From Candidatus Aramenus sp. CH1 (lineage in GTDB: Archaea; Thermoproteota; Thermoprotei_A; Sulfolobales; Sulfolobaceae): a stretch of DNA of 64,000 nt. Shown piece after piece: positions 45,388 to 57,610 of this stretch. The translations under genes were made by a program, and so were the position numbers. The stretch covers positions 1-64,000 of the forward strand of contig JALBWU010000001.1 of assembly GCA_022678445.1 (NCBI GenBank), given 5' to 3'. How positions within the stretch are numbered: position 1 is the stretch's first letter; every line of letters begins with the position of its first letter. Under the pieces are notes generated by a model. That model worked only from the letters and a program-made list of their open reading frames with translations, made no database searches and had not been told where the DNA came from.

Positions 45388-45512
45388 AATTTAATGATGA
45401 CGTCAGCGTTTATAAACTTTGATTATATTCATTATATAGAAAATTAAAAGATATTTGACACGTCGATAAGATGCTAAAAATTCAAAAAAGTAAAAAAGTA
45501 TAGGGACTTTGA

Positions 45513-45570
45513 AGAAGTTTTATAATGCAGATATCCAAAGCAGAAGTTTTATAATGCAGATATCCAAAGC
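45513..45570 (+). repeat. Perfect 29-bp tandem duplication over a start site
   Basis: Positions 45513-45541 and 45542-45570 are identical. Each copy holds TTTTATAATG, hence an ATG (45525 and 45554). The first ATG opens a nine-codon frame (MQISKAEVL) whose TAA overlaps the second ATG by one base (TAATG). The second ATG starts the long gene. Confidence 0.9.
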
Positions 45571-46612
45571 AATAGAATATATGAGAGCCAACGTTATAGT
45601 GGGCATAATAGCCATTATCTTGATTTCCGTAGGGGTATACGAGATACTTACCTACCACCCTTCCTCCCACGTGTCAGCCCCAACTAAGACGCCTAGCATT
45701 ATTACTACGCAAACCAACTCCCCACAAGCACCAACGCCGCTGTCCCAAGACCCCAAGTACGCTGAGCGAGTGACAGGAATAACCCCATTCTATGTGGCGG
45801 CGTGGTTTGAAGTGAACAACTTGAGCGGACTTCCCTTAACGTCAGGACACGTAAACGTCACGCGCTTCAACCTCGGCAACGTCACGTTTGAAGAAGGGGC
45901 ATTTGAAGTAGTGAAACACAACTCCTCTACTTTTGCAGTTATTGGTTTCGCAAAACTTAACCCATCCCTAAACAGGAACTACATATACGCCTTAATACCC
46001 TTGCTGGGCTTAAACTTCACCGTTGAAAAGACCGGCAACTACGAGAGCTTCAGTTACTTCTACGGTGATTACTCTGGGGCGGGGATTGCCTTGGGGTTTA
46101 ACGGCTCCGTCTTCGTGGGGGTGTTGTTGAACGGCACTTTAAATAACGTCAACTACTCAGCGCAGCTCCTCATAGAGCAAGTGAACTCCCTGGTAAAGAA
46201 CTCCACCCTCAGTCTGACTCCCCCGGACATTTTACCTAAGTTCAGCATGGAACTAGCGGGGTGGGGGTACGTCAACGACACCTCTATACTGTCTAAGATA
46301 GGGCTTAACGCCACCATATCTTCTGGCTACATAGGATTCTACACCAACACTACCTCTTACTTGACCTTGGGAGTAAGCCAGTTTGCTAACGCGAGCGACG
46401 CTGAGGAGGCGTTCTCGTCAATAGCGTCACATACACAAAACGTCACAGAGAACTACACAACGGGGTCAATAGATGGAGCAAAGTACCTCTCGTTCGAGTT
46501 TAACTCTACGAGCGCTATAGTGGCACAGTACAACAACTACTTAACATACGCCATAGGAAAGAACGCAAACGTGTTGCAAGCTGTAGTAGAGGAAATAAAA
46601 ACGCTCTCTTAG
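45554..46612 (+). CDS. Membrane-anchored extracellular protein, unknown function
   Basis: The 352-residue protein starts QISKAIEYMRANV, has one N-terminal hydrophobic anchor (about residues 14-33), a Pro/Thr/Ser-rich stalk and a large extracytoplasmic domain with more than ten Asn-x-Ser/Thr sequons, typical of glycosylated surface proteins in Sulfolobales. No catalytic motif is seen. It is divergent from the S53 protease and may belong to the same surface function. The start follows a 29-bp duplication: the earlier TTG at 45509 reads through both copies in another N-terminus and is less likely. The stop overlaps the DsrE gene by 4 bp. Confidence 0.7.
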   Translation: MQISKAIEYMRANVIVGIIAIILISVGVYEILTYHPSSHVSAPTKTPSIITTQTNSPQAPTPLSQDPKYAERVTGITPFYVAAWFEVNNLSGLPLTSGHVNVTRFNLGNVTFEEGAFEVVKHNSSTFAVIGFAKLNPSLNRNYIYALIPLLGLNFTVEKTGNYESFSYFYGDYSGAGIALGFNGSVFVGVLLNGTLNNVNYSAQLLIEQVNSLVKNSTLSLTPPDILPKFSMELAGWGYVNDTSILSKIGLNATISSGYIGFYTNTTSYLTLGVSQFANASDAEEAFSSIASHTQNVTENYTTGSIDGAKYLSFEFNSTSAIVAQYNNYLTYAIGKNANVLQAVVEEIKTLS

Positions 46613-54071: not shown

Positions 54072-54079
54072 CTTAAATG
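54072..54079 (+). promoter_or_regulatory. TATA box of the HerA-like gene
   Basis: CTTAAATG is centred 26 nt before ATG 54102, so the disrupted gene still has an intact leaderless promoter. Confidence 0.5.
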
Positions 54080-54101
54080 TATCCGAACGAAATAAAACGC
54101 T

Positions 54102-55895
54102 ATGGAGACTGACAAGCTAAAGAAGCTAATGGAAGAGGCTGAAGAGGAGGCAAAGAGGAGCTCCATCGACGGGATAGTGGGGAGGGTAACGAGGTTCGAG
54201 AACGTCAGGGTGGGGGAGTCGCATTACGTCGTGGTGGACGTGGCCTTTGAGGACTACTTAAGGACTCAAGTAAAGAGAGGCGAGTACTTGGCAATAAGGT
54301 CCATAATACCTAGGGTCACGATGGTGGGGGTGGTGGAAGCCATAACTAGATCTGACATGCTTGCTAGCCTCAAGATAAGGGAAGTGAATAACTACAGTGA
54401 TCCCTAGACTCTGATGACTCCAACTACCATACAGCTTACCCCCATCACAGAGATGGACGACAAGGGAAGGGTGAGGCCAGCTGTGTCACCAATAGATCCC
54501 CAGTCACCAGTGTTTAGGCCAAGACCGGAGCTACTGGAGAAAGCCTTGGGTATCCCTGAGAAGGGCATAGTAGTGGGAAAGGTGTACTCTGGTGGAGAGG
54601 TAATAGAGGCCAACGTAAGGTTGGACGAGTTCACCCTCACCCACCACGTCCTGTTAATAGGCACCACTGGCTCTGGAAAGACGACTTTTCTCAAGAGGGT
54701 AGTCTCCTCGGACGACGTGGAAAAGCAGAGCGTGGTCTTCGACAGACAAGGAGACTTCGTTAGGCTCGCTTTAGAGAGGCTAAGGGATGCAACAATCATA
54801 ATGCCCGTGACTACGCTGATGCAGGGTTACAGCACGGAAAAATACGTGGACCTCTTCTTGGATAGGTATGGGAATGCGAATAACGTAGTAATTGACGATG
54901 AATACGTGAGCCTCGAGTACGAAAATTCTAGGATCTACCTGGTGCCGTACTCGATAGCCTTTAGCGAAGTTATGGCGAACTTCCACAAGATGACCCCCTA
55001 CATATCGCCCGCAGCGAGCTTAGTGTGGGAATCGCTAATGAGAAAGACCAGGGAGCTGTTGGTATATAAACTCGTGGACTACTTTGGGAAGGAGACACTC
55101 CCATATCCGAGGGCGTGGGAGCTCTACGAGACGGAGATCAAGCCAAGACTCTAAATAGACAACCTCACTGAGAGGTCCGTTTCTTTCAAGCCGAAGAAAC
55201 TTCAAGTTGTGAAGGGCAAGAAAACAGGGTTTGTGAACTCCGACAACGAGGGTAACCTGCTGGTAGACGTGCCGGAGGCCTTCGAAAATGCCATGGAGTC
55301 GCTGAGCCTAGCCCCGCAAACCAAGGAATCGATTATCAGGGTGTTGAAGTCGTACAAGGAGTTCGGCATATTCGACGTCATGGGTACCTTCAACCGCGTG
55401 GGCAAAGGAGTATGGAAGGAAAAGAACATAATAGTGGACTTGAGCTGGATCCTTGACTACACTGCCTCCGTGGAGGCATTAGCCACGATCTCCTACAAGT
55501 TACTGTCTGACTTCTTCAAGTACAAGGACGATATGTACAAACAAGGCCAACAGACCACGCTTTCCCTCTTGATCATGGACGAGGCACACGAGTACTTCCC
55601 CCAAGCGAGCAACGAGAGCACAAAGGGGGTTATAGAGGACTTGATAAACAAGCTCATGAGGCTCGGAAGGGTTAGGAGGTTAGGGGTAGTCCTTGCAACC
55701 CACTACCCAGACGACCTGAACGAGCTCGTGATCCAGCTTTCCAACACTAAGGTGATCATGAGGAACGACCCCCAAGTGCTCAAGAAGTTAAGCGCTGAGG
55801 ACTACGCAGACATACTGACAAACGCAGAGCCGGGGGTAGGGCTAATAAGGAGCATGAGGTTCACTAACGTCCTGTTCAAGTCCCTAGTTCCGTGA
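54102..55895 (+). pseudogene. HerA-like DNA translocase interrupted by two in-frame stops
   Basis: One frame of 597 codons runs through the whole gene with only two stops: TAG at 54405-54407 (codon 102) and TAA at 55152-55154 (codon 351). The three open pieces are 54102-54407, 54414-55154 and 55209-55895. The first looks like the N-terminal HAS-barrel domain, the second has the Walker A motif GTTGSGKTT (Lys193 of the joined frame), and the third has the Walker B LLIMDEAHEYF (Glu494). HerA/FtsK-type ATPases are hexameric DNA pumps working with the nuclease NurA, and a NurA-domain gene follows convergently (20-bp overlap). No frameshift is seen and codon use is normal, so the loss is very recent, or the stops are read through, or pieces act separately. 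Confidence 0.75.
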
Positions 55896-57027
55896 GCGCC
55901 GTCTCAAAAGCCAGCTTATCGTCGTGGATTACGTCGAGGAACTGGGATGCGATCCTGTAGCCTATGACGAAGAGAGAAGCGCTTACCTTTTTGCTTGCCT
56001 TGTCCACCACCTCTATCCAGGTAGGGATTCCCCTTTCGCTAAGCCTCGAGAACACCACGCCCGCGTAGTTCAGCGTGTCCATATCCAACGCCTCCACCCT
56101 GAAGAAGCTCCAAGGCCCAACGACCCTCCTTACAACAACGTAGTAGGCGTACTTTGGTGGAACTCCCTGCAGAACGCCCTCTACGCTTATGTCGTACTCC
56201 AGCTTGAAGGGGCCAAAGGCACATACCTGCTCTCCCTTGCACAGCTTTGAGTACAGCATCCGCATCACCTCGGGGTCCGGCATAGAGGGCAGGTTTCCAA
56301 GGACGTCGTTGACCTCCTTCACCTTGTATAGCTTCCTCGACTTCTCCAACCTCTTCACAACCCCCAGTACACTCTTCCCCTTAGCGACGTCTAACCTGTC
56401 CTTTATCAGGAGAGCGTAGGCGCGCCTATGGGACACCCTCGGGTTTCCGGGTGAGTAGCTGAAGTCTACCACAAGCTCAAGAGGAGTAGGGTAGATAGGC
56501 CCGTCTACAATCACAAGGTCCGCGTTTGCGGTCTTCAACGCCTCTGTCTCAGACTCGAACCTGAGCTCGTCGGCAACGTCGTCGAGGTAGGGGTAACTCC
56601 TCTCCTCGTAGTAGTCACCTACCCTGTTCCTGACTGCCACGTAGTCCTTGTCTATTACCTTTTCCAGTTCCTTCAGTATACCCTCGTTTGCCCACAACCC
56701 CAGGAACCTCGACTTGCCGTAGTAAGGGTAGAGCTTGAGCCCCTCTGTAGTGGAAAAGGTGGACATACCTAGTAAAACCATTCCCACAGATGTGTCCCTC
56801 AAGTACCGAGTGGAAGAGTCGACTGCGAACACGGTGAGTCCTGACTGCCCTGTTGAGGACCCTGTTAAGGACAGTGGCTTCACCTCTCCAAGGCCCTCTA
56901 CCTTTATCTCCTCTTGCAACTCTATGCTCTGGTAGTCCCTAACAACGTCTGGGTACTCGCTCTTTAGCTTTGAGACCTCCTCTGTTATCCTCTTAATGTA
57001 CTCCCTTATCTTAGCTTCCGAGGGCAT
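55876..57027 (-). CDS. NurA-domain nuclease
   Basis: The 383-residue protein has the NurA domain pattern: the metal-binding first strand TVFAVDSSTRYL (AVD-S), a second acidic strand DLVIVDGPIYP, and a later motif around RVEALDMDTLNYAG. NurA is a 5'-3' exo/endonuclease that processes DNA ends together with HerA. ATG 57027 is chosen over TTG 57051; it overlaps the CbiZ-like stop by 17 bp. At the other end it overlaps the HerA-like gene. This pair is probably distinct from the canonical herA-mre11-rad50-nurA operon, because mre11 and rad50 are absent here. Confidence 0.75.
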   Translation of the reverse strand: MPSEAKIREYIKRITEEVSKLKSEYPDVVRDYQSIELQEEIKVEGLGEVKPLSLTGSSTGQSGLTVFAVDSSTRYLRDTSVGMVLLGMSTFSTTEGLKLYPYYGKSRFLGLWANEGILKELEKVIDKDYVAVRNRVGDYYEERSYPYLDDVADELRFESETEALKTANADLVIVDGPIYPTPLELVVDFSYSPGNPRVSHRRAYALLIKDRLDVAKGKSVLGVVKRLEKSRKLYKVKEVNDVLGNLPSMPDPEVMRMLYSKLCKGEQVCAFGPFKLEYDISVEGVLQGVPPKYAYYVVVRRVVGPWSFFRVEALDMDTLNYAGVVFSRLSERGIPTWIEVVDKASKKVSASLFVIGYRIASQFLDVIHDDKLAFETALTELGT

Positions 57028-57610
57028 TGCTCTTTTCCTTCTCGCCTTCAAGTAATAACCTTATGGTCTGCCTTACTTCCTTAGCTACCTTTCTGCCCAC
57101 GTCTGTCCCGGGCCCTAAGAAACTTACCTCACCTGGCTTGCCACCTACCGCAACTGCGTCGCTGACAGTGCCCGTGAATTCGTAGGACAAGTCTCGAAGG
57201 GCACCAGACTTGGCCTCAGTGACGGTCCTTATTAAGTCCACCATCCCGTTGATGCTGACACCAAAGTCCAGGAACACTGCAACGTTGATCGTTTTCCCAG
57301 CGTTTTCACCGCTCTTCCCAATGCCAGCGCTAACCATTAGCTTTCCCCAGTCCCTTATCTTGTACGCGTAGTTCCTTGCAGCGGTCATGAAGATCGCGGT
57401 GTCGCCACACTCAGTGAACTTGGAACAGTAGTCCAGCGCGTCCCCCCAAGGGTCTTTGCTGTCGTAACCATGGTCTACGAAAATCATCATTACCTTCCTT
57501 ACCTTCTGTATACCAATGGGATGCAGAGCCGAGGTAAGGGCGTAGTACTCATCTCCTAGGTCAAAGAGCACGTGAAACAATTGCGATCCGCCTTCACCTA
57601 GATCTTTCAA
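57011..57610 (-). CDS. cbiZ: CbiZ-like adenosylcobinamide amidohydrolase
   Basis: The 199-residue protein matches CbiZ, which removes the aminopropanol arm from adenosylcobinamide so that imported corrinoids can be reused for B12 synthesis. Motifs: TAARNYAYKIRDWG and AGKTINVAVFLDFGVSINGMVDLI (equivalent to the GTINI-type segment), then TVTEAKSGALRDL and the hallmark TGTVSDAVAVGG. It precedes and overlaps the NurA-domain gene, an unexpected partner. Other cobamide genes are not seen in the window. Confidence 0.75.
   Translation of the reverse strand: MKDLGEGGSQLFHVLFDLGDEYYALTSALHPIGIQKVRKVMMIFVDHGYDSKDPWGDALDYCSKFTECGDTAIFMTAARNYAYKIRDWGKLMVSAGIGKSGENAGKTINVAVFLDFGVSINGMVDLIRTVTEAKSGALRDLSYEFTGTVSDAVAVGGKPGEVSFLGPGTDVGRKVAKEVRQTIRLLLEGEKEKSNALGS

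Follow-up and report, generated by a model that had tools for sequence, protein, structure and literature searches.

Two in-frame stop codons in a HerA-like ATPase gene of 'Candidatus Aramenus sp. CH1' point to probable recent inactivation beside an intact NurA gene

In 'Candidatus Aramenus sp. CH1', a HerA-like ATPase gene remains readable from end to end except for two stop codons in its frame. Is this gene dead, is the sequence in error, or is the protein still made in some form? A preliminary description of the 64-kb window, the whole stretch of DNA analyzed here, listed very recent inactivation by two point mutations, sequencing error, stop readthrough, and a working split as possible answers. 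Translation bears out the observations behind that list. Positions 54102-55895 on the forward strand form a single 597-codon frame that ends with TGA at 55893-55895 and is cut only by TAG at 54405 and TAA at 55152, and the three ORFs reported in this frame are present (54102-54407, 54414-55154, and 55209-55895). The parts of the locus are listed below, together with their state in AZ1, the sister genome used for comparison.

54072..54101, forward strand: upstream region, with the AT-rich CTTAAATG at 54072-54079, 23-30 bases 5′ of the ATG and kept in AZ1
54102..54407, forward strand: segment 1, the N-terminal part, 101 codons up to the TAG (ORF of 101 aa)
54405..54407, forward strand: in-frame TAG, codon 102; TCA (Ser) in AZ1
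54414..55154, forward strand: segment 2, up to the TAA (ORF of 246 aa), with the presumed Walker A motif GTTGSGKTT
55152..55154, forward strand: in-frame TAA, codon 351; TCA (Ser) in AZ1
55155..55895, forward strand: segment 3, up to the TGA, with the presumed Walker B motif LLIMDEAHEYFP; ORF at 55209-55895, 228 aa, from a GTG start
55876..57051, reverse strand: NurA-domain nuclease gene, intact (Pfam NurA, 60.6 bits; PADLOC PDLC01056 NurA, 52.4 bits)

The ATG of segment 2, at 54414, lies 6 bases past the TAG. Past the TAA, segment 3 has its first in-frame start at GTG 55209 and its first ATG at 55293.

Translated with an X in place of each stop, the frame scores 34.2 bits against the Pfam DUF87 model (HerA central domain), above the cut-off of 23.2. 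Taken one by one, segment 2 matches DUF87 at 33.4 bits and segment 3 matches AAA at 21.5 bits; segment 1 alone has no Pfam match. Both GTTGSGKTT and LLIMDEAHE are present in the frame, and we take these to be Walker A and Walker B, respectively. The best PADLOC match is PDLC01055 HerA ('Type III coevolved') at 160.2 bits. An N-terminal HAS-barrel stays putative, with PADLOC PDLC04105 aligning over residues 39-234. The score against the canonical HerA equivalog NF040819 is 39.3 bits in CH1 and 41 bits for the intact AZ1 gene. Since this is far under the cut-off of 970, we regard the gene as a divergent HerA paralog. It resembles archaeal HerA, the DNA-end processing motor of HerA-NurA (PDB 4d2i), in its HerA central domain, its Walker A and B motifs, and its NurA-domain neighbor, and 4d2i is matched with 28.8 bits by a profile built from the intact relatives; unlike archaeal HerA, it falls far below the equivalog cut-off and has two stops inside. 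Structure prediction from the single AZ1 sequence gave a pLDDT of 31.9 and was unusable. No paper naming this gene appeared among the titles and abstract openings of the matches listed, which is no proof of absence.

The intact NurA gene lies tail to tail with the HerA-like gene, and the two overlap by 20 bases, as they do in AZ1. It has zero internal stops and is 91% identical in AZ1; PDLC01056 NurA, also labeled 'Type III coevolved', is its sole PADLOC match. Of the 19 genomes in which NurA was matched, CH1 included, 16 have their best HerA-like and best NurA-like matches side by side (coordinates read by eye); both matches are weak in G006, and the non-adjacent cases are G007, G009, and G017. 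Seven of these 16 pairs are tail to tail. The CH1 genome has nine DUF87 matches, the HerA-like gene included, and five NurA loci, from six matches of which two share a frame, so the pair does not stand by itself in CH1. In being paired and in their best PADLOC labels, the two genes are like the PDLC01055/PDLC01056 pair and the nurA-csm6-herA clusters that are linked to CRISPR in Pyrobaculum. The available text of PMC3396285 places csm6 within those clusters and an array near them, whereas no CRISPR-like repeat array was found within the 64-kb window.

The genus-level comparison rests on two genomes, CH1 and 'Candidatus Aramenus sulfurataquae' AZ1, and a scan of genome contigs for the gene found one locus, in AZ1. 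There the gene is intact. It has 597 codons, is about 90% identical to that of CH1, and carries serine TCA at both stop sites. The alignment covers all 597 codons with zero gaps, which upholds the earlier statement that no frameshift is present. As a query against the CH1 genome, the intact AZ1 protein matched 54102-55892 with one TAG and one TAA inside; the same search also gave two partial matches, in one other gene, on contig C7. CH1-AZ1 differences at codon positions 1/2/3 number 2/2/17 in segment 1, 19/9/51 in segment 2, and 14/11/58 in segment 3. The gap-free alignment and this third-position excess in all three segments go beyond chance. In segment 1, the residue is the same at 96 of the 101 codons. 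Upstream, 3 of the 60 bases 5′ of the gene differ between CH1 and AZ1; the claim of an intact TATA box therefore holds as a statement about conservation, and the promoter stays putative. The claim of two point mutations holds as a minimum. With TCA at both sites in AZ1, the TAA is one change away, while the TAG is two changes from TCA and one from TCG.

More distant relatives agree with AZ1. Segment 2 as a query matched 53 of 60 genomes (CH1 included), and the 29 homologous frames extracted, AZ1 among them and one with a masked run, are all unsplit and 527-667 codons long. A single uninterrupted chain is thus found in each of these 29 frames and not in CH1. The pattern that the preliminary description named as refuting its observation, homologs ending at the same positions as separate genes, is absent from all 29. 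It had also asked which sense codons stand at the stop sites in relatives, and these encode mostly serine or threonine. At codon 102, 25 of the 28 readable homologs have Ser/Thr (Ala in two, Glu in one); codon 351 lies in a region that 15 homologs have, 12 of them with Ser/Thr (Glu in two, Ala in one), and the other 14 of the 29 have a gap. Sense codons in relatives and a lesion private to one lineage, as in a young nonsense pseudogene, are both seen here for the two genomes of the genus.

If the gene had been inactive for long, decay might be visible past the stops. The dN/dS ratio between CH1 and AZ1 is 0.073 for segment 1, 0.153 for segment 2, and 0.123 for segment 3, and that of the intact NurA gene is 0.146. 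Because the ratio past the stops equals that of NurA, the stops would be very recent, provided that they are real and inactivating. At 239 conserved columns, CH1 and AZ1 differ at 4; at the 165 columns with at least 85% identity, CH1 departs at 9 and AZ1 at 10. On this evidence, either the lesions would be very young, or the protein may still matter, or the lesions may not be real.

Some counts hinted at faster change in segment 3. By majority over 15 outgroup rows, CH1- versus AZ1-derived changes number 1 versus 3 in segment 1, 9 versus 8 in segment 2, and 19 versus 4 in segment 3, and the CH1/AZ1 branch lengths are 0.000/0.048, 0.054/0.069, and 0.095/0.026, respectively (0.058/0.039 for NurA). 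The controls weaken this signal. With a single outgroup, segment 3 gives 6 versus 4, NurA by the same counting gives 16 versus 9, and the segment 3 excess has a p of 0.08 against segment 2 and 0.20 against NurA. A wider rate control over 400 kb of one outgroup had 5 usable genes, with 28 versus 26. Given these controls, and with dN/dS no different, we do not claim relaxed selection in segment 3.

Among the options raised at the outset, recent inactivation is best supported, by TCA at both sites in AZ1, by Ser/Thr in the homologs, and by the lack of visible relaxation. We judge it probable that the gene is either a nonsense pseudogene of very recent origin or a high-frequency nonsense allele. 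Judging from its family, the HerA paralog presumably acts with the neighboring NurA nuclease on DNA ends. In the lineage or population behind the MAG, the TAG and the TAA would have arisen by substitution from two serine codons; translation would then end after 101 codons, 5′ of Walker A, and the complete ATPase would not be made. The NurA partner would not yet be affected, and the loss may be tolerable thanks to other HerA-NurA pairs, a redundancy that the nine DUF87 matches and five NurA loci make possible. Recent inactivation presupposes that the stops are real in cells and are not read through, as we infer. Since the source is a MAG, the TAG and the TAA need not share one cell. The similar numbers of departures at conserved columns (9 and 10) would fit an event too recent for decay.

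Against inactivation, constraint is not visibly relaxed, there are zero indels, and the TAG is two changes from the TCA of AZ1. In Sulfolobus acidocaldarius mutation assays, as given in the available text of PMC2688765, indels arise at a rate of 0.00053 (0.00026 once a hotspot is set aside), above the substitution rate of 0.00011, a figure that rests on one chain-terminating event. If mutation is as indel-rich here, two stops without a frameshift are less expected under drifting decay, and this keeps the artefact and functional readings alive. The chance that both stops hit serine is 0.002-0.0055 by target size; the chance of any shared residue at both stops is about 0.16, by arithmetic on the difference counts.

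Nonsense-interrupted genes are a known kind, and the HerA-like gene adds one more. If the case is this ordinary, a little-known genus of Sulfolobales is in the course of losing one of its several HerA-NurA pairs, and the intact NurA offers a natural case for asking whether NurA acts without its motor.

The main rival, which we consider unlikely, is an artefact of assembly, gap filling, or strain mixture, in which the consensus stop or stops do not occur together in any dominant cell. The making of the MAG leaves room for this. It comes from the Chichon crater lake, comprises 1,930,407 bp in 24 contigs with an N50 of 224,069, and was assembled with SPAdes from 23× Illumina reads (SRR18166207), scaffolded, and gap-filled with IMAGE2 (PMC11320969). 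Preserved constraint downstream of the stops would also fit an artefact. The three clear mid-gene stops of CH1 in the regions compared can all be read as C-to-A/G-to-T changes, the TAG only if the ancestral codon was TCG, and oxidative damage, too, yields such changes. However, a sequencing-damage spectrum was not found. There are 954 sites with C in AZ1 and A in CH1 and 1963 of the reverse, so that CH1 shows no general C-to-A excess, in a count where a few errors would stay hidden and G+C is not the same in the two contigs. Two independent errors within one 1.8-kb gene would be improbable, and the gene is without an indel.

Since the intact partner NurA is no more constrained than the HerA paralog is past both stops, the paralog may also still work, either as separate segments that form a HerA ring or through reading of both stops by an unknown crenarchaeal mechanism. 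We regard a working paralog as quite unlikely. Expression of the gene, either as one full-length protein or as fragments, would make it a rare example of crenarchaeal in-frame stop recoding or of a split hexameric motor.

For a working split, re-initiation at ATG 54414 and a start at GTG 55209 or ATG 55293 would give three chains that assemble into an ATPase. ATG 54414 is indeed directly behind the TAG, the TAA falls within an insert that 14 of the 29 homologs lack, and dN/dS shows retained constraint in segments 2 and 3. But this ATG is an ordinary internal methionine codon in AZ1, and all 29 homologous frames are unsplit. A split would also place Walker A and Walker B on separate chains and cost segment 3 at least 18 codons. 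GGTG, GAGG, and AGGT are all absent from the 20 bases 5′ of either internal start, which is weak evidence because the first start of the gene is also without them. We find a split of this kind very unlikely.

Readthrough, or a suppressor tRNA, that puts serine or another residue at UAG and UAA would be in keeping with serine in AZ1 at both stop sites and with the retained constraint. The tRNA genes do not bear it out. CH1 and AZ1 have 45 tRNA matches each, which pair one to one with zero anticodon changes on inspection, and no tRNA reading UAG or UAA was recognized among the 45 of CH1. The four CH1 serine tRNAs (TGA, GGA, CGA, and GCT) all read sense codons, and a serine suppressor tRNA is unsupported by the tRNAs found. 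The list may be incomplete, since Cys and Gln(TTG) are absent from the matches of both genomes; one of the 45 matches is without an assignable anticodon. ARAGORN run without introns mislabels several intron-bearing tRNAs, and anticodons were therefore partly assigned by eye. Its tRNA-Pyl(cta) call (CH1 C1:188552-188638) is a trap for automatic annotation; we read it as a tRNA-Arg(TCT) with an intron. AZ1 has an identical copy, and this anticodon is otherwise absent from the CH1 set. The tRNA without an assignable anticodon, at C11:39395, is likewise identical in AZ1.

According to the available text of a review (PMC8211752), selenocysteine and pyrrolysine are the only cases in which archaeal readthrough has been demonstrated, whereas -1 frameshifting is described for a fucosidase and some viruses of halophilic archaea. 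Like the HerA-like gene, the Sulfolobales alpha-L-fucosidase gene is broken up yet otherwise remains readable as protein; it differs, in the available text of PMC8211752 and PMC8037382, by a -1 frameshift with shown expression, whereas the HerA-like gene has two in-frame stops. As far as tested, the HerA-like gene fits none of these recoding cases.

A survey of mid-gene stops between the two genomes covered ORFs of at least 100 codons over about 0.49 Mb aligned, with 504 of 642 AZ1 ORFs comparable; it counted the middle 80% of each ORF in both directions, with the first and last tenth left out. CH1 has stops inside 5 of the 504 AZ1-open ORFs, and two of these cases were kept, the HerA-like gene and an AAA_14/DUF4143 ATPase gene. 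The three that we dropped are two ORFs without a Pfam match, judged spurious, and an N-terminal over-extension of AIR synthase. The preliminary description had called two different stops without other decay unusual, and this is fair, as the only other compared CH1 ORF with two mid-gene stops is one of the short ORFs judged spurious (121 codons). With a single other clear CH1 gene having a mid-gene stop, a recoding pattern is not seen, and no other mid-gene serine-to-stop change occurs among the 504 compared genes. With neither a stop-reading tRNA recognized nor a wider pattern seen, we rate readthrough as highly improbable.

Inactivation that is older and selected, as when conflict drives the loss of a defense-type HerA with NurA kept for another role, would suit the intact NurA and the 'Type III coevolved' label on the best PADLOC models of both genes, but it is barely credible, given that the sequence carries no sign of age and the window no CRISPR-like repeat array.

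In the reverse direction of the survey, AZ1 has stops in 8 of 508 CH1-open ORFs. Two were kept, an STK_08120-like gene (AZ1 C2:193100) and a DsrE-family gene (AZ1 C2:150461), both stop-interrupted in AZ1 with intact CH1 copies. Of the rest, three no longer showed a stop once realigned by tblastn, one proved to be over-extended at its N terminus, one was an ORF without a Pfam match, and one (CH1 C1:185086) was neither kept nor dropped. The AAA_14/DUF4143 ATPase gene of CH1 (C1:195138-196469) lies on the contig of the window, outside the window itself, and has one in-frame TAA at 195402. This is codon 89, which is GAA in AZ1, and the protein is otherwise about 94% identical.

Several tRNA genes showed features of their own. 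The gene at C11:39395-39503 is class-II tRNA-like, has no recognizable anticodon, and is identical in CH1 and AZ1; it has end-to-end matches in several other Sulfolobaceae, and the anticodon assigned by ARAGORN differs in each of four homologs. The CH1 tRNA-Asn gene (C4:68535-68607) has 73 bases, and the AZ1 copy has 13 more 3′ of the anticodon, probably an intron. In tRNA-Ile(GAT) (CH1 C7:58375-58462), an intron-like stretch differs between CH1 and AZ1. Within the window, a perfect 29-base tandem duplication occupies 45513-45570, at the start of the ORF at 45509-46612.
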